Assembly (NCBI RefSeq): GCF_040954835.1
Contig: NC_090706.1
Location: forward strand, 30,513,148 to 30,577,147
DNA: 64,000 nt
DNA from: Lepisosteus oculatus
Taxonomy: Eukaryota; Chordata; Actinopteri; Semionotiformes; Lepisosteidae
Direction: 5' to 3'
The translations under genes and the position numbers were made by a program. A model generated the notes under the pieces. That model ran no database searches, had not been told where the DNA came from, and was given only the letters and a program-made list of their open reading frames with translations. Shown piece by piece: positions 14 to 24,107 of this stretch (the stretch's first letter is position 1; every line of letters begins with the position of its first letter).

Positions 14-633
14 GATTTCTTGTCTACGCAAGTACTTTGCTCATTGCAACTTTGCTGCTGATCTTCTACTTCTCACCACGGATCGGGCAGACCAATATCT
101 TGATCTACATTAGCATTTGCTCTCTTCTGGGGGCCTTCACTGTCTCCTCCGTCAAAGGTCTGGGCATCGCCATAAAGACATTCTTCTCGGACCCCTCTGT
201 GATAAAGCACCCCCTGACCTGGATTCTGATTGTCTCGCTAGTGGCTTCGGTTATCATCCAGATAAACTACCTGAACAAGTCACTGGATGTCTTCAACACC
301 CTGCTGGTGTATCCCATCTATTATGTCTTCTTCACAACCGTTGTTCTGACCACGTCCGTCATCCTTTTTAAGGAGTGGTACTCTATGTCAGGAGTGGACA
401 TTGTCGGAACGCTGTGTGGGTTCCTGGTGATTGTTTTAGGGGTTTTTATGCTGCACGTTTTCAGGGATCTCAAAGTCAGCTTGGCCAACCTTCCACAGAC
501 TATTAATCATAGACAGGTGGAAGAGCCGGCGCCTCAGGTGATCAAAGTAGATGACAAACACATACTCATTGAAAATATGGAAAGCCTGCCTCCTTTCATG
601 GAAGACTCACCCAGAGTGTTCATAATCAGCTGA
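14..633 (+). CDS. nipal4: NIPA-like magnesium transporter, terminal exon (partial)
   Basis: Last coding exon of a NIPA-family Mg2+ transporter of the plasma or endomembranes. The exon opens after an AG at 12-13 in phase 1 and runs 206 full codons to TGA at 631-633. It encodes about five hydrophobic segments, the C-terminal half of the roughly nine-pass family fold. Family motifs are visible, including [38 protein letters not shown] and [12 protein letters not shown] hydrophilic tail follows, ending in PRVFIIS. The earlier exons lie outside the window. The NIPAL1/NIPAL4 subgroup is indicated by the [10 protein letters not shown] region and the tail (from memory of the family). I prefer NIPAL4 because HMMR follows and both genes lie on human 5q33-q34; NIPAL1 is the alternative. 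Confidence 0.85.
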
Positions 634-3978: not shown

Positions 3979-4346
3979 AGGCAGATTGATGGTATGTGAA
4001 TAGTCTATGCGAGTCAATGACCATGAGCATTTTCTTGAAAGTATCACATTAGCCATCTGGTGACACTGCTGAGTGCTCTGAACATGAAGTGTTGTTTTAA
4101 AGTCACTAATGGAGTGGCAGGTGGTGAAGCTTATCTTGGTCAATGCCTGTGATGAGATCCTTACATATGAATTGTTCTGTCACCCCGCATCTATACAATT
4201 TAGCAAGACAAACATACTTAACGACTTAGAAAACTAAATTAGAACTGATTCCATTAAATCAAAACTTGCCAACAGTGCAAATTTTAATTCACCCACAAGG
4301 GTGGTACCTACGTCACTTCTTGCCGAGCTCAGGAACATTGTAGGGG
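3979..4346 (+). promoter_or_regulatory. Insulin copy A upstream regulatory region
   Basis: Non-coding sequence shared with the region upstream of insulin copy B (25264-25668, opposite strand). The strongest part, about 4040-4165, matches copy B at roughly 92% by hand alignment. Seen within 26 bp: ATTAG (A-box core, 4048-4052), CCATCTGG (E-box, 4053-4060) and TGCTGAG (MAF half-site, 4067-4073). A second A-box core, CACTAATGG, and an E-box, CAGGTG, follow near 4106-4126. Nearer the gene, a 17-mer (4263-4279) is identical in both copies, and a CRE-type CGTCA lies at 4311-4315. In mammals, PDX1, NEUROD1 and MAFA act on A, E and C boxes of the insulin promoter; binding here is inferred. Confidence 0.65.
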
Positions 4347-4411
4347 TATATATAGGGATGACAAAACTGGCTTTCCCAGCATCTTTCAACTTCCAATTTG
4401 CTTTGTTGAAG
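4347..4411 (+). promoter_or_regulatory. ins: Insulin copy A TATA box and non-coding exon 1
   Basis: TATATATA at 4347-4354 is followed about 30 bp later by a probable start site near 4378. A short exon without ATG then ends at 4411 before the donor GTAAGA. Copy B has the same order at 25263-25197. This matches the known insulin gene plan, in which a short untranslated exon precedes the coding exon. Intron 1 (4412-5133, 722 nt) ends in CTCTCCGCAG. The exact start site is inferred. Confidence 0.65.
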
Positions 4412-5143
4412 GTAAGAATGATCTTTGAGTTTCATGCCACGGATATATCAATCAGACAGGAGCATTACAATATGTTTTGGAACATTTGTAAAATGTTTTG
4501 AAAATCTACCTGGCATATCTCAAGAAAATCTATATGATTTCCAATCTTAATGGTTTCAAAGTGGAATAGGATAAAATTCAAGACAAGCTACCACAACATT
4601 TTTCATTACATAAGAAAGCTTTTTTTTAATTACATAATCTTGACTGTTTTCTGAAATGCATGTATATAGGACTATTCAATATGGGTGTGAACACCCAAGA
4701 TTTTCAAAGTAAACAAAGGATTAAATAAGTACTCAAAACTTTCTGCAATTTTTACAGGATTATAATAAATATCAGTATTTCTACAATACAATAACTCTAA
4801 TGTAGTGATATAGTAAACAATACAGTAAACATAAACATCAAGGTGTTTGCTAAACAAATAATACAGTAATAATGCAGTAAATATTCATGTCCATATCATT
4901 TTGAAACCAACAAATAGAAGATTAATTGTTTGGTTCAACCAGTAAACAATTCAAATGACGAATTAAACAGAGAATGGAACAGAAGGGAGTTTAGTTAGTG
5001 CATCTTACTCGTAGCTTAGTGTTTTTGACCATCACAGTGAACTGACACCTGCAATATGATAGAAATTACCAAAAATATCCCTGCCTTCGGGATTTTGCTG
5101 AAACTTTTATACCGCTCCTACGGCTCTCCGCAGCGCTTGTACT

Positions 5144-6078
5144 ATGGCTCGGCGGTTCCAAGTTTTCTCTCTGCTCGCCCTGCTGGTCCTCACTTCTCCA
5201 CCCGTGACTGATGCTGCAGCCAATCAGCATCTCTGCGGGTCTCACTTAGCGGAAGCCCTGTATTTGGTCTGCGGAGAGCGGGGATTCACCTACGATCCCG
5301 ATAAAATGAGCGGAACGGAGCCGGGACTTGGTAAGCCGTGCTTCGCTTTCTCATCTCTGTGGCTGAAGGCTCCCGTCTGCACAAAAGCTCATATTGTTGA
5401 AGCTTCCGTTTTGACAAGTGCTTCATGGCAAAGAAAACATTTCTACAAACAAGTGTGTGGGAAGGTTATCCCGATTTCTCCGTCCAGCAAAATGAATTCT
5501 AAGCGATCGCTCCATATTAAACAGATGTAGCAGTGGGCGTGCTATATAAAAAAAAAAGTTGTCTTTGTCTGGACTAGCATGTGCTCGTTGTATAGTGTGT
5601 AATCAAGTAATAATTATAAAATGCTGAAAAGACGTCTTTTTTTCTCTTTTCAGCATGGAATAAACCTTTACTTGTTCGTTTGCAGCCTACACATGCTGAC
5701 GCAGCTACCCACTTGAATATAATTAAAATATATATTTTTAATCCCCTATTTGACGTGCTATTTATTACAAATTATACATGTAATTAAAAACCTAAATCTA
5801 TTTAAGCTGTATACCTAACTTCTTGCTGTTTTGAGAGCTGGTTTTAGTTAGGTGGTTATTTGATCATCGTTTTGATTCTGTTTTTTATGTTTAATTAAGA
5901 CTAATTTTGTAATGTTGGACTGCTTGTAGGTTTGCTCACTGGAAAAGCTGGGGAGGAGAATGTAGTGGACGAATATCCATTCAAGGAACAAGGAGAGATG
6001 AAAGTGAAGAGAGGCATCATTGAACAGTGCTGCCACAAGCCTTGCACCATATACGAACTGGAAAGTTACTGCAATTAA
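5144..6078 (+). CDS. ins: Divergent preproinsulin, copy A
   Basis: Two coding parts, 5144-5330 and 5930-6078, joined in phase 1 by GTAAGC..TTGTAG (intron 599 nt); 111 residues. The ATG lies 10 nt after the intron-1 acceptor, as in copy B. Residues 1-24 are a signal peptide ([16 protein letters not shown] core), with likely cleavage before AANQHLCG. B-chain cysteines B7 and B19 and A-chain cysteines A6, A7, A11 and A20 are all present, so the insulin fold should form. The C/A junction [11 protein letters not shown] is kept. The B/C junction reads [11 protein letters not shown] with no dibasic pair, where copy B reads [12 protein letters not shown]12 is Ala (normally Val), B25 is Thr (normally Phe) and A3 is Ile (normally Val). 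His B10 is kept. The reading frame is intact, so I call a gene and not a pseudogene. It lies about 1.7 kb upstream of hmmr in the same direction. Confidence 0.93.
5620..5720. repeat. Foldback-element fragment inside intron 2 of insulin copy A
   Basis: Contains GCTGAAAAGACG, CTTTTCAGCATGGAATAAAC, TTTGCAGCC and CATGCTGACGCAGCTACC, in the order of the right arm and tail of the element at 37266-37370. It is absent from intron 2 of copy B (362 nt against 599 nt), so it was probably inserted after the duplication and explains part of the length difference. Confidence 0.65.
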
Positions 6079-7844: not shown

Positions 7845-10800
7845 ATGTCTTTCCCAAGGGCTCCGATAAAGCGATTCAATGAGCAGATTGGTAAGTAATA
7901 GCGTAGTCATTGATGACTTCAACGGAGTTCCCACACGGCCCTGTCTGTGTAAAACATCTAATGTAAAATTGTGACAGGAAGGGAGCGATTCGTAGCGTAT
8001 TTGACATCATTTCTGCATCCAATTTGCGTTTTCAGACACCGGTTTCAGACACGGTGTTTTAACCTCTTTCATGCCTGGAAAATAAGGCGTAGATAGCTTG
8101 AAGCGATTCGAGCTGCGGTCGTAGTATCTCAAGGTAACCAGCGGGGTCTCCTGTATGTCATTCACATTAGTGGTAGTGTGTAGGTGTTTACCCCGACCTT
8201 TATTTTTCTTCCACTAGCCAGTAAAGGAGCAATTCTTATCGGGTTGCGTGAAAGCAAGTTTAAGAGTTTAATTGAAGTTTCCCTATGTAGAGACTACAGT
8301 GGTAACATATTTACTTTTTAAATATATTGTCTAAAAACTGTAATCTGTCTTTCAGGGTGTGCTCCTCCTCCTGGAACCTACGAAGTCAAGCTCGTTGAAT
8401 CCGGATCAAAGGGAGCAGTGTCCTTTCAGAAGTCTGATCGCTTTAAGACTAATAAAGGTAATTTAAATGAGAATGTCTCTTATCAAGACCCTAACTCTCT
8501 TCTCAGTTTTTAAAGGTGTGGCTGAAAACAAGAGATTGCATGCTTTTCCCGTCACATACTCTTGCATAATCTGTTTAACATATTCCTGGTAACTGTATGA
8601 TTCCAGAGTGGTGTAGGATTTTTGGTAACCCCAAGCAATTCCAAAAGAGGTCTTAAACTGCATTGTGCAATTTTTAAACAGCATGCAGAAGTCTACACTT
8701 TTATCTAAGCCTATATATCAAACAGATCATTAGCCTTTTTTTGCATTATGGAATTTGTTTAGAAGATTGCATGCATCAGCATAGGCTCTTAATTCTTTAG
8801 GTCTGGGCTTACCATTTTATACATATAACTCTCTTCTCAGTTGTTAGTATTGCACACATCATGAGAGAAAAATCTCTTCTGTACATCTGTAAGATGTGGG
8901 AATGGTGTAGTAGTTTTTTATGTACTGTACAGCTATCAAGATGAGAGAATACTACAATATTTTACCTGTTCCATGTAGTGTGTACAGTATATCTCTTAAT
9001 TACAGTAGTTTAATATTATTTCAGGCAACTTTGTTCTCCCTAGGAAATTGTGCTAGAAAAGCAAAACTACGTCAAGGTTGCTCATCTATATTAAAAATAT
9101 ATAATAAAAATTAAACACTACACACTTCTGCAAAGTTTGCGATGTTGTCCATTGTATTAGTCGAAGCAATTCATTGCTGTAAATATGGTGATATAAGCGC
9201 ACTTTTTATTAATTTTGAATTTATGATGCGGCTTTACAGATGCATGTCAGCCGTCTACTGGGATGGAAAAGATGACATCTCCCATGCGACGAACGTGGTC
9301 TGCCGACGGCCTTGTGAGTACTTCCTTTTAATGCGTGGTCGTGCAAACCTTTGAAATTATTAATGATACAACACCTGTAGTTCATCTGATGCTGCGTGTA
9401 CAAGAGTAGGGTAACCCACGTTCCTAACTGTTCATAGAAGAGATGGTGATTAAAAATGACTGCGGTGTGCTGTAGAATCTGACCTGAGACAAGGACTTTG
9501 TTCTTGCAGTTTATCAAAACGTATGGTAACAGCAAGCAGGAGCTACATCCAATGTAATTCAAATGATTTAAGTACAGTTGTTAGCCCTCCAGTAAGTGAG
9601 TATTTTTATGCTTTTCAAAAATGTATTTTAAAAAATTGGTCCAAAGATTATCCATGCTTTAATTAGCTGAGGTAGTTTCACTTTGCCATTGCTTAATTAG
9701 GGGCTTAAATCTGATCTATGAATGAATTCATAGGCAGGCAGACATTTTTCAGCTAAATTAAGAAAACGTAGAGACACTTATATCCCTAAGACTTTTCTAG
9801 TAGAAAAGAGGCATCGTTGTTGTTGAAAATATTGTTGCTTTAATATTGTATACATATTGCCCCTTTGTAACACTTTTAAAGAATAACACAATAAAATGTG
9901 ATTGAGTCCTTCAAAGCACTATTTAGCTTTGCCTTCTTAGATTCTTCAGAATGCTGAAGAAAGTGTAATAAATATTTTTAAGTTGACTGTTCCTTGATAT
10001 ATCTGTATGCAACTGACTTTACACTAGGTGATTGGTTATGATAAAGGCACAATGGGAAATTGTAGATTTAGACCAGATCCCTGTGTGGTAGCTGTAATTT
10101 TCTTTTTGGGATACAGAGATGGTACCACTTCATTCTTACCCTGCCACTTTTTGGCTGCATCCATCCTTACCATTAGATTGATGGCGCTTTCTTTGGAAAA
10201 ACCAAGCGCTGAAGATGTGGCTTGATATGAGTTTAGTGGAAACCAGCATTGTTCTGATTTTTTGGGATACTCATGATGACTTATACCACACAGTGATAAG
10301 GCATATTGGACCCGAATCTGATTTGGCAGGAGCATGGTCTAGTGCTGATGTTTTGCATTAATTAGCCTTTGTAGGTATGCAGCCTGGATATGGTACTTCA
10401 CAGCATTGTACACAGAATTGGTTTTTCATTGTGTTGAGACATCACATACCCCCCACAATTTACAGCTTAATACTGTTCAGGAAACCTTTTTTGCAAAGCT
10501 TTCAGAATCAATCTTTGGTTCTTCACAACATTAGATGACAGACTGCTCTATAGCAGTTAAAGCATGAATCATGTTCTGTAGGTAGGTCCCTTTTCGGGCC
10601 ATAAATGCCCATGGGGAATGGGGGCAAGGGCCACCATCTTTCTTTGACCATCCGACACTGGAGGTGATGTAATCATCATGCTGTATGGTCAGGTTATTCA
10701 TTTTCATATGAATTTGTCCTCTGTGTACGTGTAATGTTCCCATAATACTTGATGCTGCTGGTGTTCTTTTTAAGTAATGCTTGTTTTCTTTTCAGTCTGG

Positions 10801-13800
10801 TGTAGGAAGCCAGAAAAAAGAGAAGCAAGCTCTTCTAAAGGAGATGAAACAACAGAAACTGCTGGAGAAAGAGGTAGGATACGTCTTGGACAGTGACAGT
10901 TTGTGTTGGTTCAGTCTTAAACTTAGGTGGCTCCTCTCCGAGTACACTTTGTATTTTGTTTTCTTCAGAAAAACATCTTTCTTTTTTTTGATTTAAGTAT
11001 TTACTGGTGTTCAGATTTAAAAAAACAACAACCAAAGAAATTATTGGATTTAGTCAAGGCTCTGTGTAGTTTGACAGATATTTGACATGTGCTGTTAGTT
11101 TTGGTCATTGTGTAATATGCTGTATGTAAGTAGTAAATTTATATAGTAACTCAGTAAATTGGCAGTTAAATTCATTTTGTGTAATCAAAAGTTTCACTCT
11201 TGTGATTTCCATCATTAGCATCTCAAGATTTTAATCATGTCTGATTTAATTATACGCCTGTGGTTCATCCTGAAATCAGTTGTCCTCGTTAACAGGCATG
11301 TAAGTTACCCTAATAAGTAGTGACTTCATTTTCAACGTGGATGTGATTACTGCCCTGGGTTAAGGTGTGATGGTCTTCTCCGCAGATTCGCTCACTGGTC
11401 CAACAACGGGGCGAGCAAGACAAGAGGCTCCAAGCCTTAGAAGAAGAGCTGAGGAAAGTGGAAGCAAAGCTGGTGGCTGCCATGCGAGAGAAGACGGGGC
11501 TTGCAGCCACAGTAGCGTCTCTCGAAAGACAACTTGCAGATTTAAAAAAGGCAAATGATTTGCTGAAAACAAAGGTAACAGTGCCTTACGATTTCAACTC
11601 TGCTTTATATAGATGTATGCACGTCCGTGGAGGGCTGCCCTTTCCACAGGCTCTCATCCCAGTGCATCTCTAAAGAACCTGACTGACCTCATTCCTTTAA
11701 GCCTTTTAAATCTTCTTCCTATAACAATTTGCTCTTCCCTTTTACGAGCCTCTTTATGCAATATTGTATCGACATCTGCAAATTTACCATTCACAAATTC
11801 GCTTGTTTGCGTGTCGGTCAGGCCAGTGGGATCTTGGATGAAAGAAGAGCAGAGCAGGAGGAAACTAAGATGAAGGTTGTTGAGCACAACTTTGAAATGA
11901 GCTGCACAACAGCCTGGGGTCATGAGATGAATCTAGCTAGTTGAGTGAGCCTCTGTCTGCCGCAACACAAGTATCCAGTACTCGGCATCAGTATCTCAAC
12001 GTGCTCTTGTTCTTATATTGTAGCTGACGCTCCGGGTTCTGTGTCTGGAGCTCCTGGTTAGCTGATTACTCTAAATTTGCGATTAGTGTTTTGTTTTGGT
12101 GAATTAATCCTATTTTAATTTACGTAACATCATCGCATTAGCACTTTAATTATCATATAATAAAGGGTTACCTATGTCTTTTAAACATACTGTATATACT
12201 ATATACTGTAGTACATTATACATTGGTATAGATGCTGACTTGGTTATATGCGAATTTGGTTAATCATGACAGTTCTCTCCACCAAACTCTTGTGAATGTC
12301 GAGACCCTTAAAAAAAAAAAAAAAAAAAAACTTGCTGGCTTGTGGTCTTCCAGGACTGGAGTTGTTACTTCCCACTAAGCTTGGCTCAGCTGAAATCCTG
12401 GATGTCTCTGCAGGTCTTCTGACCATCTATATTTCTAATGACCTGAAGTGGCTTATTATTGGCTTAACTGGAACATTTTATCAGTTTCTCCTAGTTATTC
12501 CTCTGCTGCTGGTCAAAAGATGTAAAATAGCCAGCAGATCAGTTTCACTGCCCTACGCAAAGCTCTTATTAATACTTGCACCTGTCTTCCAACTTGTTGG
12601 AATTACTTCAGAATAATTGAGGTGCATGCTTTTCTCAACAGTTTTCCGAGGATGGCACTAAAAAGAAAATGAATGCCCTCTCCATGGAAATACTGGAATC
12701 AAAGAATAAGATAGATGCAAAAGTTAAGGTATGTTTTCTGTGTAATACAAAATGATCTTTTTCAAAATGGTTGCTTCATTGGAGGTGAAGATTCCCAGTG
12801 GAATTCTCATTAGAATATTGTCTAGTTTACATTACTTTGTCATGTTTCTTTTATATTAACTAAATTGTCTTACCTGTGCACTAATGCTGAACATGGATAC
12901 AACAGTTGGCTTTTGTATCTGTCTGATTGATTTTGTTGTCCAGGGTATTTGCTTATGCACAGGTCTGATGTGATTATTTTCACACTTTGTTTAAATATGA
13001 TGGTGGTGTTGATGATTTTTTACATTTCTTACCTTTACACAAATCGCAAGAAAATCTGTTTTTTTTTTGTAGTATAAAATAACTTAATACAATGTAAGCC
13101 TGTATTCAAATGTGCTTAATCACATCATTTTTAACACTTTTAGGAGCTTGGCTATATGCAGATTAATTTTGAAGGACAGATTAAAGTGTTGGAAACTGAC
13201 TTGGTAGCTTCCAGAGCCACAGTGGAGGCAGTTAAAGAGAGGAATAAGGCCCTAGGTAAGTTTGTTTGGTGAACAGAGATGTTAGATTTGTATTGTTCTG
13301 TATAAATGAATGTTTTGTCAATTTCAGTTTGGGGAAATGAAGATGATAGAATTTCAAATGTACATGTTTCATGCAGGAATGTGCTCTTAATGTTCAGTTT
13401 TATGGTATACTTTGAATAATGAGCTCTACTGTTCCAGATTTGTATTTTAAAATGCCAACCATGTAGTTTTATACTATATATGGCAGGGATAAATAAATAC
13501 CACCTCGTATGAATGCTAATCCTAGTCTAAGAAAAAGCATGAATAATCCAGTCTTTTCATTATGGATCACAAAATCCATTGTTCTGCATTCAGAGGATCT
13601 GCACCAGGAAGCAAAAATGCACAATGAGGAACTTGAAAAAGAAGTGGACAGGCTGCATGGTAAGAAATGGAAGAAAACTGCTGAGAATACCTGAGTATGC
13701 ATGTGCTTTGTATATGTTAGTATATGCTTTCTGCTATGTAGTCTCTTGTGACTTAAATGAGTGGGGCATAAGTACAATCCTGATAAGCATGAGCTGTTAA

Positions 13801-23406: not shown

Positions 23407-24107
23407 TTAATTGCAGTAATTTTCCAGTTCATATATGGTGCAAGGCTTGTGGCAGCACTGTTCAACTATGCCTCGCTTCACTTTCATCTCTCCTTGTTGC
23501 TTGAATTGATATTCGTCCACTTCATTCTCCTGTCCAGATTTTCCAGTGAGGAAACCTACAAGTAATCCAGGACTTAATTACTGAAATATGACACATTTAA
23601 CAATAATACGCATAGCACATGAAGAAAATTTATATTTTTCATTTACTAATGCTACCTAATTAGTAACTGAACTGAAACAGTACTTAACACGCCAGCACTA
23701 ATCTATCATACAGTGGCTGTGGTAGAGCTGTAGCTTGGGTTTAATTGGTTTTACCAAAGTCCTTACCATAGGATTTCGGTTCATCTCCCTGTCAGGCAAG
23801 TATCTAGATTACTTTAACTTTTTATACAAAAAAAACAAGGTATTAAAATGTTTCACTAGGTTGGGATATCTCTACCATTCTGCTTGAGGTTTAGGTTAGA
23901 AAAGGGAAGCAGCTTACCCAATACTGGTTCCATGTCTCTCTTGGCTTTGTTGGGGTTGTAGAAGAAGCCCTTTTCTCCACAGACTAGATACAGAGCTTCC
24001 ACCAAGTGAGACCCGCAGAGATGCTGATTGGCTGCAGCATTAGTCACGGGTGGAGAAGACAGGACAAGCAGGGCGAGCAGAGAGAAAACTTGGAACCACA
24101 GAGCCAT
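23407..24107 (-). CDS. ins: Preproinsulin, copy B
   Basis: Two coding parts on the reverse strand, 24107-23918 and 23555-23407, joined in phase 1 by GTAAGC..TTGTAG (362-nt intron); 112 residues. The start ATG at 24107 is 10 nt after the intron-1 acceptor; an upstream in-frame ATG at 24146 lies inside the intron. Signal peptide of 24 residues ([20 protein letters not shown]). The B chain contains [19 protein letters not shown] and FFYNPNKA, then KR and a C-peptide beginning DMEPVLG. The C-peptide ends KVKR before GIVEQCC; the A chain ends YELENYCN. All six cysteines, both dibasic sites and the main receptor-contact residues are present, so this should be a normally processed hormone acting on the insulin receptor. 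Confidence 0.96.

Follow-up and report, generated by a model that had tools for sequence, protein, structure and literature searches.

Two insulin genes, hereafter copy A and copy B, lie in the stretch of gar DNA analyzed here (the window, 64,000 nucleotides within a 42.3-Mb contig of a 1.2-Gb genome), and copy A lacks the dibasic cleavage site between the B chain and the C-peptide (the B/C site). Does such a gene encode an incompletely cut insulin, a hormone with a new role, or a product on its way to being lost? On balance, we favor the view that copy A is a structurally intact, weakly constrained, and processing-defective insulin paralogue, parallel to the insab genes of teleosts, which has lost B/C cleavage and kept the site between the C-peptide and the A chain (the C/A site) together with its cysteines.

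Gene structure of insulin copy A

The features of copy A are as follows (window coordinates, strand, description, and basis).

4031..4163 (+): upstream block common to copies A and B (25616-25482 in B), probable insulin promoter/enhancer; alignment and BLAST
4347..4354 (+): TATA-like TATATATA, with an identical string at the aligned position of copy B; sequence and alignment
4375..4411 (+): putative 5' untranslated exon 1 of predicted extent, followed by a GTAAG donor; sequence and alignment with copy B
5134..5330 (+): exon 2, with the ATG at 5144, encoding the signal peptide, the B chain, and the start of the C-peptide; sequence, codon alignment, and Pfam
5144-5330 + 5930-6078 (+): coding sequence; spliced translation
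5306..5311 (+): ATG AGC (Met-Ser) replacing AAG AGA (Lys-Arg), the lost B/C site, with an adjoining one-codon deletion; codon alignment
5930..6078 (+): exon 3, encoding the remainder of the C-peptide, KVKR, the A chain, and the stop; splicing and codon alignment
6001..6012 (+): intact KVKR C/A cleavage site; sequence, codon alignment, and rule scan

Translation of 5144-5330 joined to 5930-6078 gave a 111-residue preproprotein with zero internal stops, and the intron between the two segments is bounded by a GTAAGC donor and a TTGTAG acceptor. The spliced protein matched the Pfam Insulin profile PF00049 over all of its 81 positions (1-81) with 84.3 bits (cut-off 23), and six of six cysteine codons were kept in the codon alignment, which places copy A in the Insulin/IGF/relaxin superfamily. 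The upstream block was 92.5% identical between the copies over 133 aligned bases, compared with an average of 45% for 10 shuffles, and BLAST reported 91% identity with an E value of 5e-48. It contains a CCATCTG E-box-like motif and a TAAT site, which we take to be insulin promoter/enhancer motifs.

Copy B, the retrocopy, and neighboring genes

Copy B and the other genes used in the comparison are listed below.

16..633 (+): NIPAL gene (NIPA-like magnesium transporter), final coding exon; Pfam PF05653, 2.1e-54 over 16-630
7845..11673 (+): HMMR gene between the two insulin copies, with its likely start and one exon identified; Pfam, and start ATG from sequence
23407..24107 (-): insulin copy B, an intact two-site preproinsulin gene with coding segments 24107-23918 and 23555-23407; codon alignment and Pfam
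contig C2:7788943-7789165 (-), locus L012: intronless, decayed insulin retrocopy; sequence search and alignment
contig C7:516282-516967 (-), loci L005, L007, and L023: another insulin-like gene, of two coding exons, whose insulin-type A chain ends in ENYCN; Pfam

Copy B encodes 112 residues and matched PF00049 with 99 bits, and the spliced C7 insulin-like gene matched Pfam Insulin with 72.8 bits. Outside the insulin genes, 18 ORFs or exons picked from the 289 listed were scanned with Pfam; NIPA and HMMR were identified (HMMR_N in ORF 11371-11673 at 1.4e-27), one gave a weak zf-UDP match below the cut-off, and the other 15 of the 18 had no match. The retrocopy is flanked at 7.789 Mb of contig C2 by a LYRM2-like gene, found by searching with human LYRM2 and with the LYR profile, and by ankyrin-repeat exons, recognized by a generic repeat string only.

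In the spotted gar, ins1 and ins2 have been described in opposite orientations on either side of hmmr, and an intronless psi-ins between ankrd6-like and lyrm2-like genes (Irwin 2019, PMC6591164). The layout found here is the same, with copies A and B facing opposite ways around HMMR and the retrocopy between LYRM2-like and ankyrin-repeat genes; copies A and B are thus probably Irwin's ins1 and ins2 or the genes of a close gar. The six places in the main text of that paper that name gar or Lepisosteus make no mention of gar insulin processing sites. The rows of its Table 3 sum to 136 of the 141 intact sequences, from which the gar appears to have been left out of the table, and a loss of the copy A type may already be recorded in its supplements. 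Among the matches listed in our literature search on gar insulin or processing loss, only Irwin 2019 and 2021 were directly relevant.

Loss of the B/C cleavage site

At the B/C junction, copy B reads AAA GCC AAG AGA GAC ATG GAA, and copy A reads AAA, a one-codon gap, and then ATG AGC GGA ACG GAG; one codon has been deleted, and K has changed to M, R to S, D to G, and M to T. The gap was placed by hand in the codon alignment, and MAFFT sets a 3-base gap a few bases further on. An earlier note on this DNA had claimed that copy A is one codon shorter than copy B and lacks the dibasic pair at this junction, with the C/A site KVKR and all six cysteines intact. Both claims held: KR became MS through two point changes alongside the deletion, and in KVKR the Arg codon differs from that of copy B only silently. 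The note was also right about where the loss lies, and its start at 5295 needs a correction of one base because the first Asp codon starts at 5294.

We then scanned both proproteins from residue 25 onward for convertase sites, for which we required K or R at P1 and a second basic residue at P2, P4, P6, or P8. Copy B has two qualifying sites (KAKR↓D and KVKR↓G), and copy A has one (KVKR↓G). Compared with a canonical two-chain insulin, copy A therefore retains the dibasic C/A site and has MS for KR at B/C, with no qualifying P1 there.

Copy B and the decayed retrocopy both carry KAKR codons at B/C, the retrocopy keeping AAAGCCAAGAGA, and by this comparison the loss is derived in copy A. Two full insulin precursor chains among the sequence matches, which we take to be human and bovine insulin, read RR at the same junction.

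Sequence constraint on copy A

The strongest competitor to the favored reading is early non-functionalization, in which copy A is a redundant duplicate that drifts neutrally, its frame still open by chance and the loss of the site tolerated. We judge this possible, albeit unlikely, and the evidence concerning constraint is mixed.

The substitution pattern fits drift. We made a three-way comparison of copy A, copy B, and the retrocopy at 316 of 339 sites, excluding 3 at which all three bases differed. Substitutions unique to copy A comprised 21 replacement and 9 silent changes, which equals the neutral expectation (replacement share 0.71; binomial p = 1.0), with the qualification that, as the comparison has no DNA outgroup, some of these 30 changes may have arisen on the branch leading to copy B and the retrocopy. 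The corresponding ratio for copy B was 5:3, and the retrocopy had 18:8 and a stop in addition. Within the hormone chains the copy A ratio was 8:7 (12 three-way sites plus 3 scored by eye opposite gaps in the retrocopy), which is below neutral without reaching significance (p = 0.12), and in the C region it was 11:2 (Fisher p = 0.11 against the chains). Pairwise dN/dS between copies A and B by the Nei-Gojobori method was 0.33 overall, 0.15 in the hormone chains, and 0.51 in the C region; we did not accept purifying selection on these pairwise values alone because the A-unique ratio of 21:9 is neutral-like. In the favored explanation, the copy A protein has likewise evolved under relaxed constraint.

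The state of the gene argues against simple drift. Copies A and B differ at 44 of 333 sites, a distance about equal to that of the retrocopy from copy B (270 of 321 aligned columns identical, 13 of the 321 being gap columns). The retrocopy, which is 84% identical to copy B and 78% to copy A, shows three gaps (7, 11, and 2 bases), a substitution that creates a stop, and the loss of one cysteine codon, whereas copy A has no frameshift gap, stop, or cysteine loss. In neutral simulations that started from copy B, with 15 to 40 changes and two indel rates and with frame, cysteines, and splice dinucleotides scored, all tested features were retained in 0.04-11% of runs, depending on the number of changes and the indel rate; joint survival was 0.3-0.8% at 33 changes and 6-11% at 15. 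Under this model, chance survival of the intact features of copy A is unlikely. In addition, the upstream block is conserved between the copies to the same degree as exon 3 (91.9%) and exceeds exon 2 (82.4%), whereas the introns are at the level of shuffled sequence (0.430 versus 0.439, and 0.461 versus 0.453; 10 shuffles each).

Differences between the copies are unevenly distributed in exon 2 (5144-5330 versus 24107-23918), with 9 in the first 120 coding bases and 25 in the next 90. The best break fell after 134 bases, with 12 differences before and 20 after, and this degree of clustering was reached in 0 of 5000 permutations; clustering of silent changes alone was borderline (P = 0.05). The B/C junction is located where the coding sequence diverges most (9 changes in the 30-base bin 121-150 and 10 in the bin 151-180), a position that would also be expected if the loss of the site were part of neutral decay. 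The clustering suggests partial gene conversion between copies A and B, which could have refreshed parts of copy A and thereby weakens divergence arguments and dating.

Receptor-contact positions

The mature chains of copies A and B differ at seven positions, namely, B12, B22, B25, B27, B29, A3, and A18. Three of these changes (B12 V to A, B25 F to T, and A3 V to I) fall within the 13 positions listed for receptor site 1 in PMC6204900, and at the ten other listed positions copy A is the same as copy B. A3 and B25 are, respectively, the positions of the Wakayama and Chicago insulinopathies according to PMC8514764. At B12, B25, A3, and A18, copy B, the top solved insulin chain, and the C7 insulin-like gene agree against copy A; at B22, the solved chain and the C7 gene disagree. 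The top solved chain is presumably human. The changes at B12, B25, and A3 suggest reduced binding to the insulin receptor, so that copy A would probably act weakly there. This alteration of receptor contacts is also compatible with non-functionalization and, like the neutral-like 21:9 ratio, speaks against a dedicated hormone.

Could copy A instead be a neofunctionalized ligand, that is, a B-C-fused hormone with an altered receptor preference that selection has kept? We consider this improbable. The retained cysteines and C/A site would fit such a hormone, as would a C region richer in replacements than the chains, but neither the 11:2 nor the 8:7 ratio is significant, and the changes in copy A are not enriched at receptor site 1 (the site accounts for 13 of the 51 positions and 3 of the 7 changes; p = 0.24). 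Moreover, a 100-fold lower receptor affinity of proinsulin-related peptides is cited in PMC9376086.

An assembly or base-calling error, or an unrecognized exon that restores the dibasic site, is very improbable: the data come from a single assembly and the splice scan covered donors and acceptors taken singly, but the pair was removed by two separate substitutions accompanied by an in-frame deletion, in a gene with 22 replacement codons, which a single base-calling slip cannot explain, and within that scan KR or RR was not gained from any alternative in-frame site. The earlier note had named both a sequencing error at the junction and an alternative exon as what would overturn its claim; the changes at the junction speak against the former, and, as far as single donors and acceptors go, the splice scan speaks against the latter. 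Besides the donor in use, two alternative in-frame donors precede the first read-through stop, neither of which supplies KR or RR (one adds RK inside the retained intron), and no in-frame acceptor was found other than the one used.

Predicted product of copy A

Returning to copy A as a processing-defective paralogue, we infer its expression, signal cleavage, folding, convertase cleavage, receptor activity, and function from its sequence as follows. Copy A would be transcribed from an insulin-type promoter common with copy B, the signal peptide would be removed, and three disulfides would form. The cleavage lost is predicted to be of the PC1/3 type, and PC2 or furin would make a single cut in the proprotein, at KVKR↓G. 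Carboxypeptidase trimming would then leave the B chain and C-peptide as one chain of 64 residues, linked to an A chain of 21. This product may bind its receptor weakly or in an altered way, or it may compete for processing enzymes, a role that Irwin suggested for insab of teleosts.

The single cut that the earlier note had predicted is thus supported by the sequence, with the B/C site lost and the C/A site and cysteines intact, and the once-cut product itself is a prediction. PC2 may cut at C/A more slowly without prior cutting at B/C, which counts against such a product. The predicted form is that of human split proinsulin cut at C/A only, a processing intermediate in which the B chain, extended by the C-peptide, is disulfide-linked to a free A chain; in copy A, by contrast, this form would apparently be the end product and would also carry receptor-contact changes. 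The note had further placed the product between insulin and an IGF-like form, a framing that we find weaker. IGF1 and IGF2 have a B domain unseparated from C, a short C domain, and D and E domains. The predicted product resembles them in that B is not separated from C; however, copy A stops directly after A21 Asn, without D and E domains after the A domain, its C/A site is predicted to be cut, and its 36 residues between B30 and A1 exceed the IGF C domain.

Relation to insab and the history of insulin genes

In percomorph insab, the predicted B-C site is absent in 12 of 14 sequences, the C-A site is kept in 9 of 14, and the cysteines are conserved (PMC6591164, Table 3), and a later review (Irwin 2021, PMC8051583) discusses products in which the C-peptide stays attached to the A or the B chain. 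Copy A is likewise a duplicate insulin with the B/C site lost, the C/A site and six cysteines kept, and relaxed constraint. Because this kind of change has already been published for teleost insab, the loss in copy A is less surprising. However, insab arose from insa within Percomorpha, near sh3pxd2b (Irwin 2019, 2021; PMC6591164), whereas copy A has NIPAL and HMMR as its neighbors in a gar, and its loss is presumably independent. Copy A thus appears to be a separate instance of an already known type of half-processed insulin and not a new kind of hormone.

In teleosts, insa is found most widely beside nipal and insb beside hmmr (PMC6591164). A single gar locus (window 1-24107) has NIPAL and HMMR around the inverted insulin pair, which fits a descent of insa and insb from one such locus through the teleost genome duplication. 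The gar locus, which unites the neighbors of insa and insb, thus bears on the origin of the teleost paralogues. On the same contig, teneurin exons lie 0.85-1.09 Mb from the insulin pair. Elsewhere, aromatic-hydroxylase and IGF-like exons are near each other on contig C7 (54.78-54.92 Mb), and no insulin match was found between them among the matches listed.

Approximately 6 kb from the C7 insulin-like gene is a low-complexity ORF, putatively SCAF1, with YDPFDPT-type motifs like those of SCAF1. Three DUF4211 matches, presumably to the domain of PRR12, are on contigs other than C7. The teleost insc, which lies beside scaf1 and prr12, has been dated to early teleosts by Irwin; if the C7 insulin-like gene is insc, insc is older than the teleosts.

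As the gar lies outside the teleosts, its copy A would imply that B/C cleavage was lost after insulin duplication at least twice in ray-finned fish. An intact copy B, an altered copy A, and a dead retrocopy also offer a within-genome comparison for testing the function of incompletely cut insulins. A bolder reading, which we regard as improbable, holds that gars independently evolved and have long kept an insulin-type hormone that is normally cut only once. Its C-peptide would stay joined to the B chain for good, its receptor surface would have been retuned, and it would have converged on teleost insab. If such a long-kept hormone were true, half-processed insulin would be a recurrent functional outcome of duplication and not decay.
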